Positions 1,122 through 9,522 of a DNA stretch of 9,716 bases are shown in pieces; the stretch's first letter is position 1; every line of letters starts with the position of its first letter. Below the pieces are notes generated by a model. That model saw only the letters and a program-made list of their open reading frames with translations. It was not told the DNA's origin and did no database searches. The DNA comes from Candidatus Heimdallarchaeota archaeon (GTDB lineage Archaea; Asgardarchaeota; Heimdallarchaeia; Heimdallarchaeales; Kariarchaeaceae). A program made the translations under genes and the position numbers. The stretch is taken from contig JAAFKL010000175.1 in assembly GCA_021399405.1 (NCBI GenBank), positions 1-9,716 on the forward strand, given 5' to 3'.

Positions 1122-1667
1122 TTATCTCCTTACTTTTGGGAAAAACATCGGTGTCCTTTTCCGATATTCAATATATTCTTCACCCAGCCTCTTTTCGAGT
1201 TCTGGCTCCTCAATCGATTTAATTTCCCAAAAATTAATAAAAATAAAAAGAGGTGTAAATACAATGAGAAGGGAAACCGATCCAAAAAACACACCAAAAC
1301 CAAAAAGCAGGGAAAATACACCTGTAAGCATTGGATTCCGTGTGTAAGCGTATGGACCGGTCATTACTAAAATTGGTGGTGGATTGAAGGGTACTGGAGT
1401 GCCCTTAGTCCTAAGGAAACTTCGACCTGACCATCCAATTAGAAACAGAGCGAGTAAAAAAAATGGGAAAGATAAAATGATGTTTAGAGGATTTGAAAAT
1501 AGACTGGTAATGCCAATCAATTCGTCTAGATATAACGATACAACAACAAAAACAAATATCAAAAACCCGTAGAAGAAGGCACCTACTGGTGTAAAAAAAT
1601 TACGGGCCTTTCGACTCCCTGTTGCAATATTATTTATGGTTTCAATCCATTTCTTTTTTAGATTCAT
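1122..1667 (-). CDS. Isoprenylcysteine/phospholipid methyltransferase-like membrane protein
   Basis: A 181-residue membrane protein of the isoprenylcysteine carboxyl methyltransferase / phosphatidylethanolamine N-methyltransferase superfamily, which moves a methyl group from S-adenosylmethionine to a lipid-linked or hydrophobic substrate at the membrane. Hydrophobic segments lie at about residues 27-48, 60-80 and 112-148 (likely a helical hairpin). The family signatures are [10 protein letters not shown] at 104-113 and, after the hairpin, [20 protein letters not shown] at 153-172, followed by PMFFP. Length is normal for archaeal and bacterial members. The substrate cannot be read from sequence; prokaryotes generally lack prenylated-CaaX proteins, so a lipid or small-molecule substrate is as likely. 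The ATG at 1667 is preceded by a weak AGGAT site. The stop abuts the sufB-type remnant. Confidence 0.8.
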
Positions 1668-1972: not shown

Positions 1973-2923
1973 TCAACTTGTAGGCTTTGAAATCAGAAAA
2001 TAGTATGCACCATTACCCTCTTTTTGTTTCACAATCTGTAATCCGTTTTCTTTGAGCTGATCCTCCACAATACCTTTTGAAACACCGAGTTTGTTAACGA
2101 ATGGATAGAGTTCTTCTATCATATCAAAATAAACCGATACGAAAGCATAACGCACATCAACCTCAGTCTCGTCAAATGATGAGGCAATAACTGCCTTACC
2201 ACCTGGTTTGAGAATTCTGGAGATTTCTGGTATAATCCAATCCATCCCACTTAAATGGAGTGTAAAAATACTCAATGCAAAATCCACAGAATCGTCTGGT
2301 AATGGCGATTTAACTTTGCTTTTGTTTGTTTCAGATTCTTCGTTTTTGATTTCCGGATTAATTACTGATAGATATTCCTGACCACGCATCATTTTGATTC
2401 TTTTTTGAGTTATCTCGTAAAATTTTGGGTGTAGATTATGAATTATCATCCTTCCAATGGGTCCAAGCTCATTACCAATAGTAATGATAGGTTTCAACTG
2501 TATTTCACTAAATCTAACGGAAAAATCAGCAAAAATCATTCCAGATCTAACCGTCAGATACTCCAAAATTTCATCCCTAACAAACAACAATTTTTCCTGA
2601 ATTCGTTCATTAAACAATCCATAAAACTGAAACAAATATTCAGCTACAACTTTGCGACCTTCCTCAGTTGTTTGATAATGTTTTTTCTTTCCTTTGTGAT
2701 CGCTAATTTCTATGAAACCACTGTTCAGCAATCCTTTCAAAGCAGGATAAATCTGATTATCATCTACCACATAACCATCAAGTGCTAAGTGTTCCCTTAT
2801 TTCAACACCATACATCTCTTTTTGCCGTAAATGCATTATGAGTGATAATTGTAAAAAACCTAGTCTACGCCATGCGAATTGCGATTTAGTTGATTTTTGG
2901 ATTACTGGAGTTTGTTTTTTCAT
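1973..2923 (-). CDS. PadR-family regulator fused to a methyltransferase-like domain
   Basis: A 316-residue fusion. Residues ~20-100 are a PadR winged helix: LGFLQLSLIMHL, MYGVEI (38-42), then DNQIYPALKGLLNSGFIE (55-72) as recognition helix and GKKKHYQTTEEGRKVV as wing and last helix. Typical PadR proteins end near residue 110-180. Here residues ~125-316 resemble a class I SAM-dependent methyltransferase: LPDDSVDFALS at 208-218 and ISRILKPGGKAVIAS at 234-248 are good matches to the conserved motifs after strands 4 and 5. The SAM-binding glycine loop (usually DxGxGxG) is replaced by TIGNELGPIG (148-157), so catalysis is doubtful; the domain may bind a ligand instead. PadR proteins usually repress a neighbouring transporter or detoxification gene, and this one is divergent from a large ABC operon. 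Its TATA box overlaps candidate operator repeats. Start: ATG at 2923, nearly leaderless. Confidence 0.85.
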   Translation of the reverse strand: MKKQTPVIQKSTKSQFAWRRLGFLQLSLIMHLRQKEMYGVEIREHLALDGYVVDDNQIYPALKGLLNSGFIEISDHKGKKKHYQTTEEGRKVVAEYLFQFYGLFNERIQEKLLFVRDEILEYLTVRSGMIFADFSVRFSEIQLKPIITIGNELGPIGRMIIHNLHPKFYEITQKRIKMMRGQEYLSVINPEIKNEESETNKSKVKSPLPDDSVDFALSIFTLHLSGMDWIIPEISRILKPGGKAVIASSFDETEVDVRYAFVSVYFDMIEELYPFVNKLGVSKGIVEDQLKENGLQIVKQKEGNGAYYFLISKPTS

Positions 2924-3054: not shown

Positions 3055-3068
3055 ACCACTAAAGTGGT
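3055..3068. repeat. 14-base palindrome ACCACT-AA-AGTGGT in the operon leader
   Basis: Six-base perfect arms with a two-base spacer, just downstream of the predicted transcription start near 3047. It differs in base composition from the AT-rich repeats upstream, so it could be the site of a second regulator or a short RNA hairpin near the 5' end. It covers the first of two tandem GTG codons (3064 and 3067) that would otherwise extend the ATPase frame. Confidence 0.4.
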
Positions 3069-3114
3069 GATGGTTACCTCAAACAGAAGGTGGACCATAC
3101 TAGCAGGTGAAATC

Positions 3115-3552
3115 ATGCAAACAGGAGTTTACAAAATTAAATCAGAAACATTCCCAATTGTCACCATTGATAATGTCAGTAAAATTTATGATATGGGGAT
3201 TATGCAAGTTCACGCTCTCAAAAACGTGAGCTTGAAGGTTGTTCGTGGAGAATTTATAGTTATTCTTGGACCATCCGGATGTGGAAAAACTACCTTGCTT
3301 AATCTCATAGGAGCAATCGATCGACCCACTAAGGGAAACATAAGAATCAAAAATTTAAATCTCACCGACCTTGGAAGGGGAGAATTAGCCCAGATACGAA
3401 GGGATTATATGGGCTTTATTTTTCAATTTTTCAATTTAATACCAACGTTAAATGCAAGAGAAAATGCAGAGTATGCATTGCAGATACGTGGTCAAAAGAA
3501 TACCCGTGCAAGGGCAACTGAAGTATTAGGACAAGTTGGATTAGGTAATTAA
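3115..3552 (+). CDS. Truncated ABC ATPase (N-terminal half of a LolD/MacB-type NBD)
   Basis: 145 residues with the first half of a LolD/MacB-like nucleotide-binding domain: strand and A-loop region (VSKIYDMG, 21-28), Walker A GPSGCGKTT at 52-60 and the Q-loop GFIFQFFNLIP at 100-110. It ends VLGQVGLGN, stop (TAA 3550-3552), exactly where family members continue into the LSGGQ signature, Walker B, D-loop and H-loop. None of these follow in any frame, because the permease starts one base later. It cannot hydrolyse ATP alone in the known way. It is either a 3'-deleted relic kept for translational coupling or a non-catalytic partner. ATG 3115 is preferred because AGGTGA at 3105-3110 precedes it; the frame is open up to GTG 3064 (17 more residues) and an ATG at 3070, but those lie in or beside the leader palindrome. 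Confidence 0.85.
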   Translation: MQTGVYKIKSETFPIVTIDNVSKIYDMGIMQVHALKNVSLKVVRGEFIVILGPSGCGKTTLLNLIGAIDRPTKGNIRIKNLNLTDLGRGELAQIRRDYMGFIFQFFNLIPTLNARENAEYALQIRGQKNTRARATEVLGQVGLGN

Positions 3553-3553
3553 G

Positions 3554-6500
3554 ATGTTTGCGGCAAAATATGCGTATAAATCACTAATAAGAAGGAAACA
3601 AAAGAATTTAACAATAATTCTTGCAATCGCACTTGGAGTTGCGTTATATGTCGGAGTTCAGATTGGAAATGACGGATTAAAAGATTCTGTGGCGAGACTA
3701 AAATATGATAGCATTCATAGAACTGATATCGTTATAAATCCTGAGGGGGGCAATTTCGTAAATGAGAGTATAGTCAATGATTTATCAACCATTCCCTCAA
3801 ATGATTTAATACTCGGGGTTGAACGAAGAATCGTTTTCTACACAGGAGCTTTCTATCAGTCTTCTAATCAGATAGAAGATAATGTAAGGGTTGCCGGAAT
3901 TGACCCTAACGACGACTTGGATGACGATTTTGGTGTTTTTTATGATGAGGATGGGGAAAAAATCAATATTAGAAATATTGTGGGTACCCGGAGAAATGAA
4001 ATCCCAAATGTAATTGCTTCAACAGAGCTTAAAGATGAATTACAGCTTACTGGCTCTGGTACTGAGGAATTAATAATGAGCTTCGACATTGGTAATGGTA
4101 CTTTTGTTGAAATCAAAGTAAATGTAGTAGACATTTATTCAGATAAAAAGGGTAGGGGATTGGAAGGAACGGTATCAAATGATCCTACTTCAAACTTATA
4201 TATTCATTTGCAAGAATTAAGGGATCTTATGATCCTATCTTTGCAAGATCAAGTGAGTTATATTGCCATCACAATGGCCGGAGTTGACCGTTCGATAGAG
4301 AGTATCGAATATGAAACCGGTGAATTCCCTGGCAAGGATAAAATAAATCAAGTAAAAAATGAGTTAGAAGCACTATTTGAATCTAACGGTACTGAAGGAG
4401 TACAGGTATATTCAGCCAGAATTGATATTGCTGAAAATGGTATCAATCGGCTTCTTCGGACCACCAGTGTTCTAGAATTATTCGTTTTCATTTTAAACTC
4501 GATAGCTCTGTTACTAATTGTTAATGTTCAACTGATGTCTGTAGAAGACCGAAAGAACCAAACTGCAGTACTACGGGCATTGGGTGCAAATAGACATACT
4601 ATTACTTACGTTTTCTTGCTTGAGGCTTCAGTGGTTGGTATCGCAGGTGGGTTGATTGGTGTATTGTTAGGAATCCCACTAAGCAGGCAGATTGTGTCAC
4701 AAATTGCTTCCTTATTTCATGGTCCTGAAACAAATCCCACAGTCGATTTCGCAATCATTATCCCAGCAATGATAATGGGATTAGTCCTATCAATAATAAC
4801 CGCAGTTGCCCCTGCAATACAATCGACGAGAGAGATTATTGCCAATTCACTAAGAGGAATCTCAGGTCCCAAAAAACCCAAAAAAAGATATTTCACAATA
4901 ATATTTGGATTTATTTTTGTGATTATTGGTTTACTATCAGCAAACAATGTTGGCAAATTTTGGTCTCGAGATGGTTGGCAAACTTTCGAAGATATCCAAG
5001 CTATCATGCTAGGTCTAGGTTTGACTCTTGCTGGTATCGGTTTACTACTTACTATGGTAATTGATAGGCGTATTGCCTTGAATATATCTGGTATATCACT
5101 TTGGGGACTAGCTGTTTTTATCTTACTGGTTGCAATCTCATGGGTTGAGCCAGGGGATCCTGGAAACACTCTAACTTTCGTAATGTTTTACATGGTAGTT
5201 GGAGCCACTATGATAATTTCAACTAACTACGAATTCTTAATGAGATCACTTGGCAAATTTCTATTTTTATTTCCTAAATTAAGAGCAATTTCTCAGGTTA
5301 CAACAACTGGAATGATTGGTAGAAAAACTCGTGGAATCTTAGTCTTCACGATTTTCTCCATTATTTTAACCTTGAATGTATTTGTAATATCCACTGCCGA
5401 TTCAATTCGAGTAGGTCTAGTTGACGAACACGATTGGCGTAGTGATGGTGTTGATGTGGTTGTTGATGTGCAATCTCCAGTTTCAGGATTAGCTGATGAT
5501 ATAAAAAACGTAGATTCTTCAATTACACACGTTTTTTCATTTCGTAAAGCCTATATTCCCATCTATACAGTTGACATCTCAGTCCTCGATATTCAAGATG
5601 ATCCTGCTAACTTAATAGGGTATGTTCCTATAATTGAGGTTAATGAATCAATGATGAATCCAGATAATTGGGGTGACGATTCTTTGAAAATAAGTTTAAT
5701 GGGGGGTTTGAATAAAGATGATGATGGAGAAGAAAGTGGGGCAGTCCTAGATAGCTTTAATGGTGTAGAACCCGATGAAACTAGAAACCACGAACTTTCT
5801 GAAACATTTTTTGATAATTTCTTTGCCGGTCACCAACGTGAAATTAACCAAACCTATGATCTGGAAGGAGGTAGGCAAACAATCCAAACCGAAAATCAAG
5901 TTATGATCTGGGGTGGAAGTGGGACCGAAATTCTTGGCATAGCAAAAGGTGATTCATTGTATATGCAAACCAAGGATGGTGGTACAACAAAAATGTATCT
6001 TGGAGCACTTGGGTTTGATATGATGGGTGAGAATGATTTATTTGGAATAGGTTTTCTTGTCACTCCTGAAATTGCAGAGACTCTTCCCGCTTTTGATCGC
6101 GTTCTAAATGAAAATGTGTTTTTAGTAAGAAGCACAAATGCTTTTCATGATGATAACGAAAATGATGAGCTTGCTTCTAATATTGAGGCAACACTGAATT
6201 CTATCTCCACGTATGGAATCCTACTGGGGGCAAACACAAGGATTGTGAAGGAAGAGGTTGTAGAGTATAATTTCATACTCGCAGCGTTTTGGGACTTCTT
6301 AGGAATGTTTAGTTCTCTAGGGTTAATTATAGGGGCTCTAGGCATGTCAATAATCGCAATTAGATCTGTATCTGAAAGAATTCGGGAGATAGGTATGATG
6401 CGATCAATTGGATTTAGCAGAAAATCAGTAGTACAAGGGGTGATAATAGAATTGGTTGTATTGTCATTATTAGGACTTATTATCGGAATAATCAATGGAG

Positions 6501-6676
6501 TACTGCTTACGATTGCTCTTGTAAGTAATATTTACGAGACCACGGAATCATATCCAGTGATGGTTATCAGCCTATATGCATTGGGTGTAATTTTGATTTC
6601 AGTGATTGCCGCAATCATCCCTGGGTATAGGGCATCTAGAGTTATGCCCAGTCATGCGTTGAGGTATACAGGATGA
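3554..6676 (+). CDS. Large ABC exporter permease with two FtsX modules
   Basis: A 1040-residue permease of the FtsX/MacB/LolC-E class. Order: TM1 (~18-38), extracytoplasmic domain 1 (~39-305), FtsX module 1 with three helices (~306-425), a basic cytoplasmic linker (GPKKPKKR), four further helices (~446-463, 480-502, 513-532, 540-558), TM9 (~595-613), extracytoplasmic domain 2 (~614-904, strongly acidic in parts, e.g. DDDGEESG), and FtsX module 2 (~905-1040). Each module has the cytoplasmic turn expected to touch the ATPase: LRALGANRH (340-348) and MMRSIGFSRKS (948-958). With 12 helices both termini are cytoplasmic. Such permeases usually work by mechanotransmission on outside substrates such as lipoproteins, peptides or drugs; the substrate here is unknown. 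The two-module build resembles a LolC-LolE pair on one chain. Weak AGGT site at 3543-3546; translation probably couples across TAAGATG. Confidence 0.9.
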   Translation: MFAAKYAYKSLIRRKQKNLTIILAIALGVALYVGVQIGNDGLKDSVARLKYDSIHRTDIVINPEGGNFVNESIVNDLSTIPSNDLILGVERRIVFYTGAFYQSSNQIEDNVRVAGIDPNDDLDDDFGVFYDEDGEKINIRNIVGTRRNEIPNVIASTELKDELQLTGSGTEELIMSFDIGNGTFVEIKVNVVDIYSDKKGRGLEGTVSNDPTSNLYIHLQELRDLMILSLQDQVSYIAITMAGVDRSIESIEYETGEFPGKDKINQVKNELEALFESNGTEGVQVYSARIDIAENGINRLLRTTSVLELFVFILNSIALLLIVNVQLMSVEDRKNQTAVLRALGANRHTITYVFLLEASVVGIAGGLIGVLLGIPLSRQIVSQIASLFHGPETNPTVDFAIIIPAMIMGLVLSIITAVAPAIQSTREIIANSLRGISGPKKPKKRYFTIIFGFIFVIIGLLSANNVGKFWSRDGWQTFEDIQAIMLGLGLTLAGIGLLLTMVIDRRIALNISGISLWGLAVFILLVAISWVEPGDPGNTLTFVMFYMVVGATMIISTNYEFLMRSLGKFLFLFPKLRAISQVTTTGMIGRKTRGILVFTIFSIILTLNVFVISTADSIRVGLVDEHDWRSDGVDVVVDVQSPVSGLADDIKNVDSSITHVFSFRKAYIPIYTVDISVLDIQDDPANLIGYVPIIEVNESMMNPDNWGDDSLKISLMGGLNKDDDGEESGAVLDSFNGVEPDETRNHELSETFFDNFFAGHQREINQTYDLEGGRQTIQTENQVMIWGGSGTEILGIAKGDSLYMQTKDGGTTKMYLGALGFDMMGENDLFGIGFLVTPEIAETLPAFDRVLNENVFLVRSTNAFHDDNENDELASNIEATLNSISTYGILLGANTRIVKEEVVEYNFILAAFWDFLGMFSSLGLIIGALGMSIIAIRSVSERIREIGMMRSIGFSRKSVVQGVIIELVVLSLLGLIIGIINGVLLTIALVSNIYETTESYPVMVISLYALGVILISVIAAIIPGYRASRVMPSHALRYTG

Positions 6677-6689: not shown

Positions 6690-7391
6690 ATGAGTCAAGA
6701 AGCAATATTAAGTGTTCTGGACATACATAAGAAATACAATGAAGGTAAATCAAATGAGGTTTATGTTCTCAAAGGAGTTGATTTCTCAATCCCACCAGGA
6801 CAAATGACTGCTATTATGGGACCTTCAGGCTGTGGAAAGACAACACTGCTAAATTTGATAGGAGGGCTGGATGAAACATCTGACGGTAATATCTTGATTG
6901 AAGGCAATTCTATTATTGATATGGATGATAATGATCTTACTAATTTTCGAAGGGATAATGTAGGATATATATTCCAATTGTTCAATTTGTTCGATGATCA
7001 GACATCAGTTGAAAATGTTTCATTGCCTCTCTTATTACAAAACTCGGATGTGAGTGAAGCCGTAACAAAAGCCGAAATGCTTTTACAAGAAGTGGGTCTA
7101 GGAGATCGATTCAATGATGTTCCTGGAAATTTAAGTGGAGGGGAACAACAAAAGGTTGCCATTGCAAGAACTCTAGTGACTAGTCCAAGAATTATTTTGG
7201 CTGATGAACCAACTGGAGATCTTGACATTGCAACCTCTGATGATATAATGGCATTATTTAGAAGAATGCAGGAAGAGAATCAAGGGATGGCAGTAATAAT
7301 AGTGACCCATTCAAGCCGAATTGCAAATCAGTGTGATAGGATTATTCGAATTGAAAATGGGACAGTTTTCAGTGATGAGGAGGTTAAATAG
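6690..7391 (+). CDS. ABC transporter ATP-binding protein, LolD/MacB class
   Basis: A complete 233-residue cytoplasmic nucleotide-binding domain of normal length. Motifs in order: Walker A GPSGCGKTT at 44-52, Q-loop IFQLFNLF at 94-101, signature LSGGEQQKVAIAR at 148-160, Walker B IILADEPTGDLD at 168-179 with the catalytic Glu173, and H-loop VTHSS with His207. The PTGDLD form and the Q-loop context are those of ATPases paired with FtsX-type permeases. It directly follows the permease and should drive it. Because the permease carries two coupling modules, this protein could act as a homodimer or pair with the next gene product. Its C-terminal coding end contains the ribosome site of the next gene. 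Confidence 0.93.
   Translation: MSQEAILSVLDIHKKYNEGKSNEVYVLKGVDFSIPPGQMTAIMGPSGCGKTTLLNLIGGLDETSDGNILIEGNSIIDMDDNDLTNFRRDNVGYIFQLFNLFDDQTSVENVSLPLLLQNSDVSEAVTKAEMLLQEVGLGDRFNDVPGNLSGGEQQKVAIARTLVTSPRIILADEPTGDLDIATSDDIMALFRRMQEENQGMAVIIVTHSSRIANQCDRIIRIENGTVFSDEEVK
7377..7384 (+). promoter_or_regulatory. Ribosome binding site inside the end of the second ATPase gene
   Basis: GAGGAGGT encodes the final Glu-Glu-Val codons of the second ATPase and lies nine bases before ATG 7394. It supports that ATG as the true start of the 596-residue protein, so the long N-terminal region is translated rather than being leader sequence. Confidence 0.65.
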
Positions 7392-7393
7392 TA

Positions 7394-9184
7394 ATGGTCG
7401 AAAAAGGGAAATTTATAGTTGCAACTTTGGTAGATTGGAATAACGCAATTCAGCTTGAAAAGACATGGAAAAAAATTTCGAAAATTTTCAAGAAGAAATT
7501 ACATGCAAAGAATCCCAAGAAAAATCAACTTAACACATTTGTAATTACTGAAGTTGAATTAAATAGTCTCCCTTCACGTGAAGATCGAATAGAAGCGGAA
7601 GGAGAAATTAAGAAATATTTGAAGGAATATGCTGATGCCATACATGATGCCCATTATGCCTATGTAAAAAGACAGGGTACAATCACTGGAATCTATGAAA
7701 AAGGGTTGGTTGCTCGAGGAAGATTGGATCTATTTGAAAAATATGCTGAAGCTAAAGCTAATCGATTTGAGAAGATTGAGAGTGAGATTGAAAGAGTAGG
7801 GGCTGAAGGAGGAGTTATAATTTGGGATCTACCTGGATTTGAAGCAGACAAACTAATTTTACCTGAATGTGTTGCCACATTTGATGCTTATCCAGAAGAT
7901 AGTGAAGCTTTAGTTGATATAGTAGATGAGGTCCTAATTGCTAATTTCTCCCGTAGGTTTTTGCCTTTTAGCGATGAATTGATCAAAGAAGCAGTTGAAG
8001 AATTCAAAGAGCTAGAATTTCTAGCCGCAAAGTTAAACAAAAATGATCGGGTACCTGAAGATTTGTTAATTCCTTTACAAACCTTTATTGGAGTTATTTC
8101 TGGTATCCAAGAGGTTCTAAAGCTCTTTAAACGGGAAGTATCAAAGGTTTATGATGTTGCGATTGAAGCCTTTGATTTCCTTCATAGCCTACCCTCAAAA
8201 GAATTGAAGGAATGGGCAACTGTAAAAAATCGGAAACTTGGTGATGAAATTAATGCGAGTATTGATGCAGTAATGGGCATTATCATTCAAAGTAAACCTA
8301 GCTTGAGAAATCTATTAACCGGTGAAAACGAACTTAGTAATGAAATTGTAAATCAATTGATGGAAACAATGGTTGATATGGATGTTATTTCAGGAGGACT
8401 ACTTTCTTGGGTTCATAGATTCCAGCAGTTACCATCTTTCACTACACTTGATGAAGGTATAGCATACGAGGAGCTTGAAGGAGAGACTTATTGGCCAAAA
8501 GTAGAAGATGCTATTATTGAAGCCCAGACACTTTTTAAAACATTTAAGAGAGGAAATTCCTACATTTATGCTTTACGAGGGGTAAATGTGATTATCAACG
8601 AGGGTGAATTCATAGTCATTCGAGGGCACAGTGGTGCTGGAAAAACGACCCTTCTTAATATGTTGGCAGGTTTAGATGTTCCTCAACGTGGGGGGGTATT
8701 TTTCACAGGTCAAGATATCATTAATATGAAGGACAAAACACGGTCAAAATTGCGAAGAGAAAATTATTCGTTCATTTTTCAGAACTATGCCTTAATTCCA
8801 CACCTAACTGCTTTTGAGAATACAAAATTACCCCTTGATTTGGCTGGATTGTCCGACGAACTCGTCGCGGGAATTCAAAAACTCCTTGATGATGTGGGTA
8901 TAGGTGAATATGCGACTCATAAACCCGCATTATTGAGTGGTGGTCAAATGCAAAGATTAGGCATCGCCCGTGCTTTAGCAAATAACCCGAAGGTCTTATT
9001 TGCCGATGAACCAACTGGAGATCTTGATGAAGCAACTGGCTTGTCTGTGATGGAACTACTGAAAAAATATCATGAGGAAACCGGCATGACAATCATTCTT
9101 GTAACACATGATGAGAATGTTACGAAGTTTGCTACAAGAGAAATTCTCATAATGGATGGTCGAATTGTGAAATCAATAGAATAA
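7394..9184 (+). CDS. ABC ATPase with a ~370-residue N-terminal region of unknown function
   Basis: 596 residues in two parts. Residues ~372-596 are a complete ABC ATPase domain: Walker A GHSGAGKTT (411-419), Q-loop FIFQNYALIP (Gln463), signature LSGGQMQRLGIAR (514-526), Walker B VLFADEPTGDLD (534-545, Glu539), H-loop VTHDE (His572). All catalytic residues are present. Residues 1-370 I do not recognise: no membrane segment or signal peptide. Roughly 1-190 looks alpha/beta (strands FIVATLV, NTFVITEVEL, GGVIIWDLPGF) with a charged helix at ~105-135, and 190-365 looks all-helical. WDLPG resembles a GTPase G3 motif, but no matching P-loop exists in this part. No internal methionine with a ribosome site lies near the ATPase start, so this is a true fusion. 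A regulatory or partner-binding role on the exporter is an inference. Confidence 0.88.
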   Translation: MVEKGKFIVATLVDWNNAIQLEKTWKKISKIFKKKLHAKNPKKNQLNTFVITEVELNSLPSREDRIEAEGEIKKYLKEYADAIHDAHYAYVKRQGTITGIYEKGLVARGRLDLFEKYAEAKANRFEKIESEIERVGAEGGVIIWDLPGFEADKLILPECVATFDAYPEDSEALVDIVDEVLIANFSRRFLPFSDELIKEAVEEFKELEFLAAKLNKNDRVPEDLLIPLQTFIGVISGIQEVLKLFKREVSKVYDVAIEAFDFLHSLPSKELKEWATVKNRKLGDEINASIDAVMGIIIQSKPSLRNLLTGENELSNEIVNQLMETMVDMDVISGGLLSWVHRFQQLPSFTTLDEGIAYEELEGETYWPKVEDAIIEAQTLFKTFKRGNSYIYALRGVNVIINEGEFIVIRGHSGAGKTTLLNMLAGLDVPQRGGVFFTGQDIINMKDKTRSKLRRENYSFIFQNYALIPHLTAFENTKLPLDLAGLSDELVAGIQKLLDDVGIGEYATHKPALLSGGQMQRLGIARALANNPKVLFADEPTGDLDEATGLSVMELLKKYHEETGMTIILVTHDENVTKFATREILIMDGRIVKSIE

Positions 9185-9342: not shown

Positions 9343-9522
9343 GTGGAAAAACCAGTACAAATCGGCATTATAGGTACAGGTTACGTAGGCTTAGTCAGTG
9401 GATGTTGTTTCGGTGAACTTGGATTCAATGTTACTTGCGGTGACGTAATTCCTGAAAAAGTCAATATGATTTCGGAAGTCATACCGATTTGTTCTTGTAG
9501 AATTATATGTAATTTTTTATGA
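9343..9522 (+). pseudogene. 5' fragment of a UDP-glucose/UDP-sugar 6-dehydrogenase gene
   Basis: From GTG 9343 the frame encodes VEKPVQIGIIGTGYVGLVSG, CCFGELGFNV, TCGDVIPEKVNMISEVIPI, then unrelated CSCRIICNFL and a TGA at 9520-9522. The first ~49 residues match the NAD-binding start of UDP-glucose / UDP-N-acetylmannosamine dehydrogenases, which oxidise a UDP-sugar to its uronic acid for surface glycans: Rossmann loop GTGYVGL, strand 2 ending in an acidic residue (GD, 33-34), then KVNMISEVIPI in place of the usual KI-x-L-N-GEIPIYEPGLEEL. Similarity stops abruptly at the IPI, where YEPGLEEL should follow. The full enzyme is over 400 residues, so this encodes no working dehydrogenase. It could be the break point of a deletion, an insertion or an assembly error. 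Exact substrate class cannot be told from this part. Confidence 0.8.

Follow-up and report, generated by a model that had tools for sequence, protein, structure and literature searches.

An N-terminal region new to the domain libraries searched, fused to a LolD/MacB-type cassette beside an FtsX-type permease in archaea

We analysed a stretch of 9,716 nucleotides from a Candidatus Heimdallarchaeota archaeon (GCA_021399405.1, contig JAAFKL010000175.1; the whole stretch is called the window), in which one gene (7394..9184, + strand) encodes a protein of 596 amino acids that joins a 372-residue N-terminal region to an ATP-binding cassette (ABC). The fusion architecture is well supported. Sequence comparison indicates that the N-terminal region is an as yet unnamed domain that is new to each library searched, sits in a known kind of machine and extends beyond one genome. 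We propose, with a probability of roughly 0.5, that the fusion protein forms half of an unequal cassette pair in an archaeal type VII ABC machine and that its N-terminal part is a cytosolic control module.

The open reading frame of the fusion is real, with residues 1-372 standing ahead of a complete LolD/MacB-type cassette. Its 596 codons, of which the first 372 occupy 7394-8509, run without a stop, and the remaining two forward frames contain 29 and 54 stops across the N-terminal region. A Shine-Dalgarno-like AGGAGG (7378..7383, +) lies 10 nucleotides (nt) 5' of the ATG at 7394, and the first methionine is aligned in 17 of 17 near-relative rows, the window protein included; farther relatives begin up to 7 residues before this position or about 7 after it. 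Genome contigs yielded no locus with a single-protein query and one with an alignment query (L001, on a contig of a Heimdallarchaeota metagenome-assembled genome). Between the window and L001, the 372 N-terminal codons mismatch at rates of 0.35, 0.24 and 0.59 at codon positions 1, 2 and 3, as expected of translated sequence. These results bear out the first-pass annotation, made from the letters alone, which had described an uninterrupted frame with a ribosome site and about 370 extra residues. The opposing case that it had named, a translation start near residue 370, is unsupported by the start codons, the conserved first methionine and the codon-position substitutions. In fact, the only in-frame ATG, GTG or TTG codons between codons 320 and 420 are 322, 323, 326, 329 and 399, and codons 330-398 hold none of the three. 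GTG codon 399 has a Shine-Dalgarno-like GAGGGG 5 nt ahead; we do not take it as the start, because by the boundaries of the LolD profile the cassette would then lack its initial 25 residues.

The cassette (8513..9184, +) begins at residue 374 by the LolD profile and at residue 394 by Pfam ABC_tran. Walker A (GHSGAGKT, 8624-8647), LSGGQ, Walker B (DEPT) and the H-loop are all intact, in the manner of a type VII-style cassette. Among 139 relatives, SGGQ, Walker B and H-loop patterns are found in 134, 134 and 130, the exceptions not having been checked singly and 5 of the 139 being shorter than 540 amino acids. The cassette matches the LolD profile at E 1e-56, and its score against the LolD equivalog TIGR02211 (191.9 bits) does not reach the curated cut-off of 307.75. 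With cassette motifs shared throughout, it is 46% identical to MJ0796, 41% to MacB and 39% to LolD. In the 60 of 127 PDB matches listed, the best stretch begins at profile position 367 or beyond.

Residues 1-372 gave no convincing match in Pfam, NCBIfam, PADLOC, PDB sequences or PDB folds, and the N-terminal profile alone gave none below E 0.04 against PDB sequences. Among the titles and abstract openings listed in searches of open-access PubMed Central (PMC) papers, none concerns an N-terminal region of this kind, which does not imply that it is unpublished. The region is apparently soluble, its highest 19-residue hydropathy (1.58) lying just below the cut-off of 1.6 applied to the permease described below. 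In the structure model, a small ferredoxin-like unit bearing a long helical hairpin is predicted to be followed by a bundle of helices and then by a flexible linker. The alpha/beta part (residues 1-165; 7394..7888, +) is predicted to follow a ferredoxin-like beta-alpha-beta-beta-alpha-beta order with an added small beta hairpin, and its second helix appears to be replaced by the long helical hairpin (residues 62-138; 7577..7807, +). The helical part (residues 173-343; 7910..8422, +) is read as a bundle from the helices of the model, packing not inspected on coordinates, and the putative linker (residues 344-373; 8423..8512, +) is of low confidence from residue 346. The hairpin that stands where helix 2 would be, and the helical part that comes after, distinguish the region from ferredoxin-like alpha/beta folds, an arrangement so common that the likeness implies no kinship. 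The profile search and structure prediction of residues 1-370 that had been recommended at first pass have thus been run without a convincing match to a known domain. The alpha/beta and helical parts suspected there both appear in the model, and the description of an unrecognised region on a LolD/MacB-class ATPase, with an FtsX permease as neighbour, withstands the family, sequence and fold searches. Over 52 aligned rows, A10, N47, F49, W144, D178, S236 and Q239 are invariant, and R247, R305, W339 and F343 of the helical part nearly so; as a guess, the polar ones in the helical part might form a binding site.

Protein searches scored about 8000 candidates each, restricted to 0.55-1.75 times the query length (about 328-1043 amino acids in the search with residues 1-372, 205-651 in two profile searches); longer fusions or rarer forms may therefore be missed. 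Residues 1-372 retrieved 21 proteins at E <=0.1, and a profile built from ten near-side family members retrieved 37 at E <=10. The widest profile, which included the farthest relatives, retrieved 211 at E <=10, the best 120 of these 211 all at <=2.5e-104; its E values are flattering, as the query contained two far-side rows. The Pfam accessions of its listed matches are of the ATPase type and, in two far-side proteins scanned, fall on the cassette. Viral contigs searched for relatives gave zero matches. We analysed 150 relatives, 31 on the near side (P0001-P0031) and 119 on the far side (P0032-P0150). An organism name is attached to 13 of the 31, all Heimdallarchaeota or Kariarchaeaceae, and to 2 of the 119, both Bathyarchaeota (P0103, P0122).

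By these comparisons, the N-terminal region has a shared ancestry across two archaeal groups, at a mean N-terminal identity of 19% between the sides. In a search of 5.8 billion sequences, the near-side profile picks up five proteins of the far side at E 2.4e-6 to 5.5e-6, and one more at 0.017. Profile-profile comparison of 23 near-side with 70 far-side rows gives a probability of 95.6 and E 1.2e-8 over 335 columns, against E 0.23 for the reversed control and none better than 0.014 in 20 block shuffles. Similarly, the near-side hidden Markov model matches every one of the 70 far-side rows (E 9.8e-20 at best, in a small set of mutually close kin), and on the reversed rows it matches 68 of 70 at E <=10 with none better than 0.011.

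The layout is likewise widespread: in 139 of the 150 relatives Walker A is preceded by 395 residues or more, and 133 of the 139 have a length of 590-619 amino acids. Eleven depart from it, six with shorter N-terminal parts and five ending before or inside Walker A, and count against a fusion that is always present at full length; P0018, P0019 and P0023 are labelled partial by the source, and P0020, P0021, P0025, P0028, P0030, P0031, P0112 and P0123 carry no such label. A survey suggested at first pass, of whether the region occurs alone or on other ATPases, returned neither a complete stand-alone copy nor a fusion to another ATPase type among the matches listed within the length limits. In a tree of 22 fused and 5 other cassettes (two plain partners, MJ0796, MacB and LolD), the fused cassettes all group to one side of a single branch supported at 100/99. 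Cassette identity across the two sides averages 53% (21 near-side by 19 of 113 far-side rows), compared with about 40% between the fused cassette of the window and its plain partner. By these comparisons the fusion is conserved and old, with one ancient event as the simplest account.

The near-side motif VIIWDLPGF, which the first-pass annotation had pointed to, proved a misleading lead and was rejected as a GTPase signature. The phosphate-binding loop pattern GxxxxGK[ST] is absent from the N-terminal region in the window and loosely matched in 2 of 139 relatives. The letters also vary: the 25 near-side matches found comprise 18 WDLPG, 4 WDMPG and 3 others, and among the most frequent far-side forms the equivalent is mostly WDF[VAS]E. 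The D and G of DxxG are retained in 22 of the 25 near-side matches and in none of the 12 most frequent forms on the far side, which cover 115 matches.

The neighbours of the fusion gene are those of a type VII system. A plain LolD-like ATPase of 233 amino acids, the probable partner cassette (6690..7391, +), and a duplicated FtsX/MacB-type permease of 1040 amino acids (3554..6676, +) precede it. In 2 of 2 loci the plain gene lies directly 5' of the fusion gene, with a gap of 2 nt in the window and an overlap of 1 nt in L001. An FtsX/MacB-type permease gene belongs to the putative operon in both. The window permease matches PF02687 in two stretches (E 9.8e-31), and that of L001 matches PF02687 and the MacB_PCD family PF12704 (29.6 bits, cut-off 27). 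Simple hydropathy marks 12 hydrophobic segments in the former, among them 19-37 and 305-323, and 14 partly overlapping ones in the latter. The permease also carries two different coupling-helix motifs: DRKNQTAVLRALG from residue 332 is identical to L001 at 13 of 13 positions and ERIREIGMMRSIG from residue 941 at 12 of 13. The two permeases are 43% identical, and 0.1% and 1.1% of their 13-residue windows are as conserved as DRKNQTAVLRALG and ERIREIGMMRSIG. We take both to be coupling helices from their position in the FtsX domains and by analogy with MacB-like sequences, not from a structure. Two unlike and strongly kept coupling motifs would fit one permease chain holding two different cassettes. 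Upstream, a further LolD-like ATPase frame of 162 amino acids (3064-3552, +) is broken off just before the expected LSGGQ/Walker B and ends 1 nt before the permease start; across 136 residues it shares 39% identity with the plain ATPase, and it may be a remnant, a deletion or an assembly join.

We infer a heterodimer of unequal cassettes, a cytosolic location of the N-terminal part, and regulation or docking by it. In the proposed machine, of the MacB/LolCDE/FtsEX/BceAB/YbbAP-like kind, the plain and the extended cassette would each dock on a coupling helix of its own in a single permease chain, in a 2:1 arrangement like that of YbbAP. Less surely, the N-terminal part might hang on its flexible linker in the cytosol beside the cassette dimer and regulate it by setting the timing of dimer closure or of ATP hydrolysis. 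The N-terminal part could be triggered by binding a small molecule or, alternatively, another protein of the cytosol, and the outcome might be that the mechanical stroke delivered to the outside domains is placed under internal control.

Several points weigh against this proposal. Gene order is unlike between the two loci, running permease, plain ATPase, fusion in the window and plain ATPase, fusion, permease in L001, with the permease first in one and last in the other. These are the two gene neighbourhoods read, both on the near side. The tree has five non-fused rows, chosen from those available, and drew a program warning about long branches that meet. On both sides, conservation is also lower in the N-terminal part than in the cassette, with mean identities of 52% against 76% on the near side (21 rows) and 80% against 90% on the far side (29 of 113 rows). 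Finally, the extended cassette could work as a homodimer, and the N-terminal region could instead act as an enzyme, serve as a platform for assembly or direct localisation.

Among roles for the N-terminal part we rank regulation first. Next, and doubtful, comes a docking or localisation platform that would tie the machine to a cytosolic structure or protein and leave ATP hydrolysis unaltered. The long hairpin and the other helices, in which no catalytic motif can be recognised, are consistent with it, and so is the precedent of FtsEX, a bacterial type VII system with the cytosolic partner FtsA (PMC7343993); no obvious partner gene is seen in the window or L001, and nothing else specific speaks against it. 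An enzyme with a palm-like or cyclase-like alpha/beta core, its product or substrate tied to the transporter, takes third place and seems unlikely. Least probable, by a little, is a mere structural brace, which would keep the unequal cassettes stably paired or aid their folding and would sense nothing: the lower conservation of the N-terminal part favours it, but 372 residues with invariant polar positions across distant archaea seem, in our judgement, excessive for stabilisation.

In its fullest form, regulation would mean that an undescribed archaeal domain family, anciently fused to one of two unequal cassettes, switches a type VII machine by a cytosolic signal, which we offer tentatively, as possible rather than probable. 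If true, the machine would relay a signal outward from the cell interior through the one membrane that archaea have. Most known type VII ABC machines are bacterial; this would be an archaeal version, in which a large uncharacterised module, putatively cytosolic, is combined with two unequal cassettes that appear to be a dedicated pair. The alignments suffice for writing a new Pfam-type family, and the unequal pairing would provide a testable handle on the role of these machines in Asgard archaea and Bathyarchaeota.

Other genes lie nearby. Downstream of the fusion gene, 9343-9519 (+) is a 59-codon fragment of the N-terminal end of a UDP-glucose/GDP-mannose dehydrogenase (PF03721, E 1.3e-9) that breaks off abruptly, the second truncated gene in the window after 3064-3552. 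Divergent to the ABC genes, 1973-2923 (-) encodes a 316-amino-acid protein with a PadR-type DNA-binding domain and a methyltransferase-like domain (PF08241), possibly a regulator of unusual make-up. In L001 its place is taken by another divergent gene beside the ABC operon (1-597, -), open at the contig end and with zero Pfam matches at E 0.01. A phospholipid methyltransferase-like protein (PF04191, E 2.8e-9) is encoded at 1122-1667 (-).

Among known systems, the ADOP family TIGR03434 has the duplicated FtsX-type permease in common (E 5.5e-31), and the score of 107.5 bits does not reach its curated cut-off of 622.3. According to PMC12646458 and PMC5985334, type VII systems typically act outside the membrane without moving a substrate across it, and the name exporter is therefore uncertain for the machine of the window. 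Like the window, the type VII system YbbAP of E. coli combines a duplicated FtsX-type permease with LolD-like cassettes, and large outside domains are predicted here. YbbAP and BceAB are described with ten transmembrane helices, as halves of four and two linking helices, compared with the 12 hydrophobic segments that simple hydropathy gives for the window permease. In YbbAP, two equal cassettes assemble with one permease (PMC12646458), both copies of one plain cassette, whereas the window encodes two different cassette genes, one of them with 372 extra residues.
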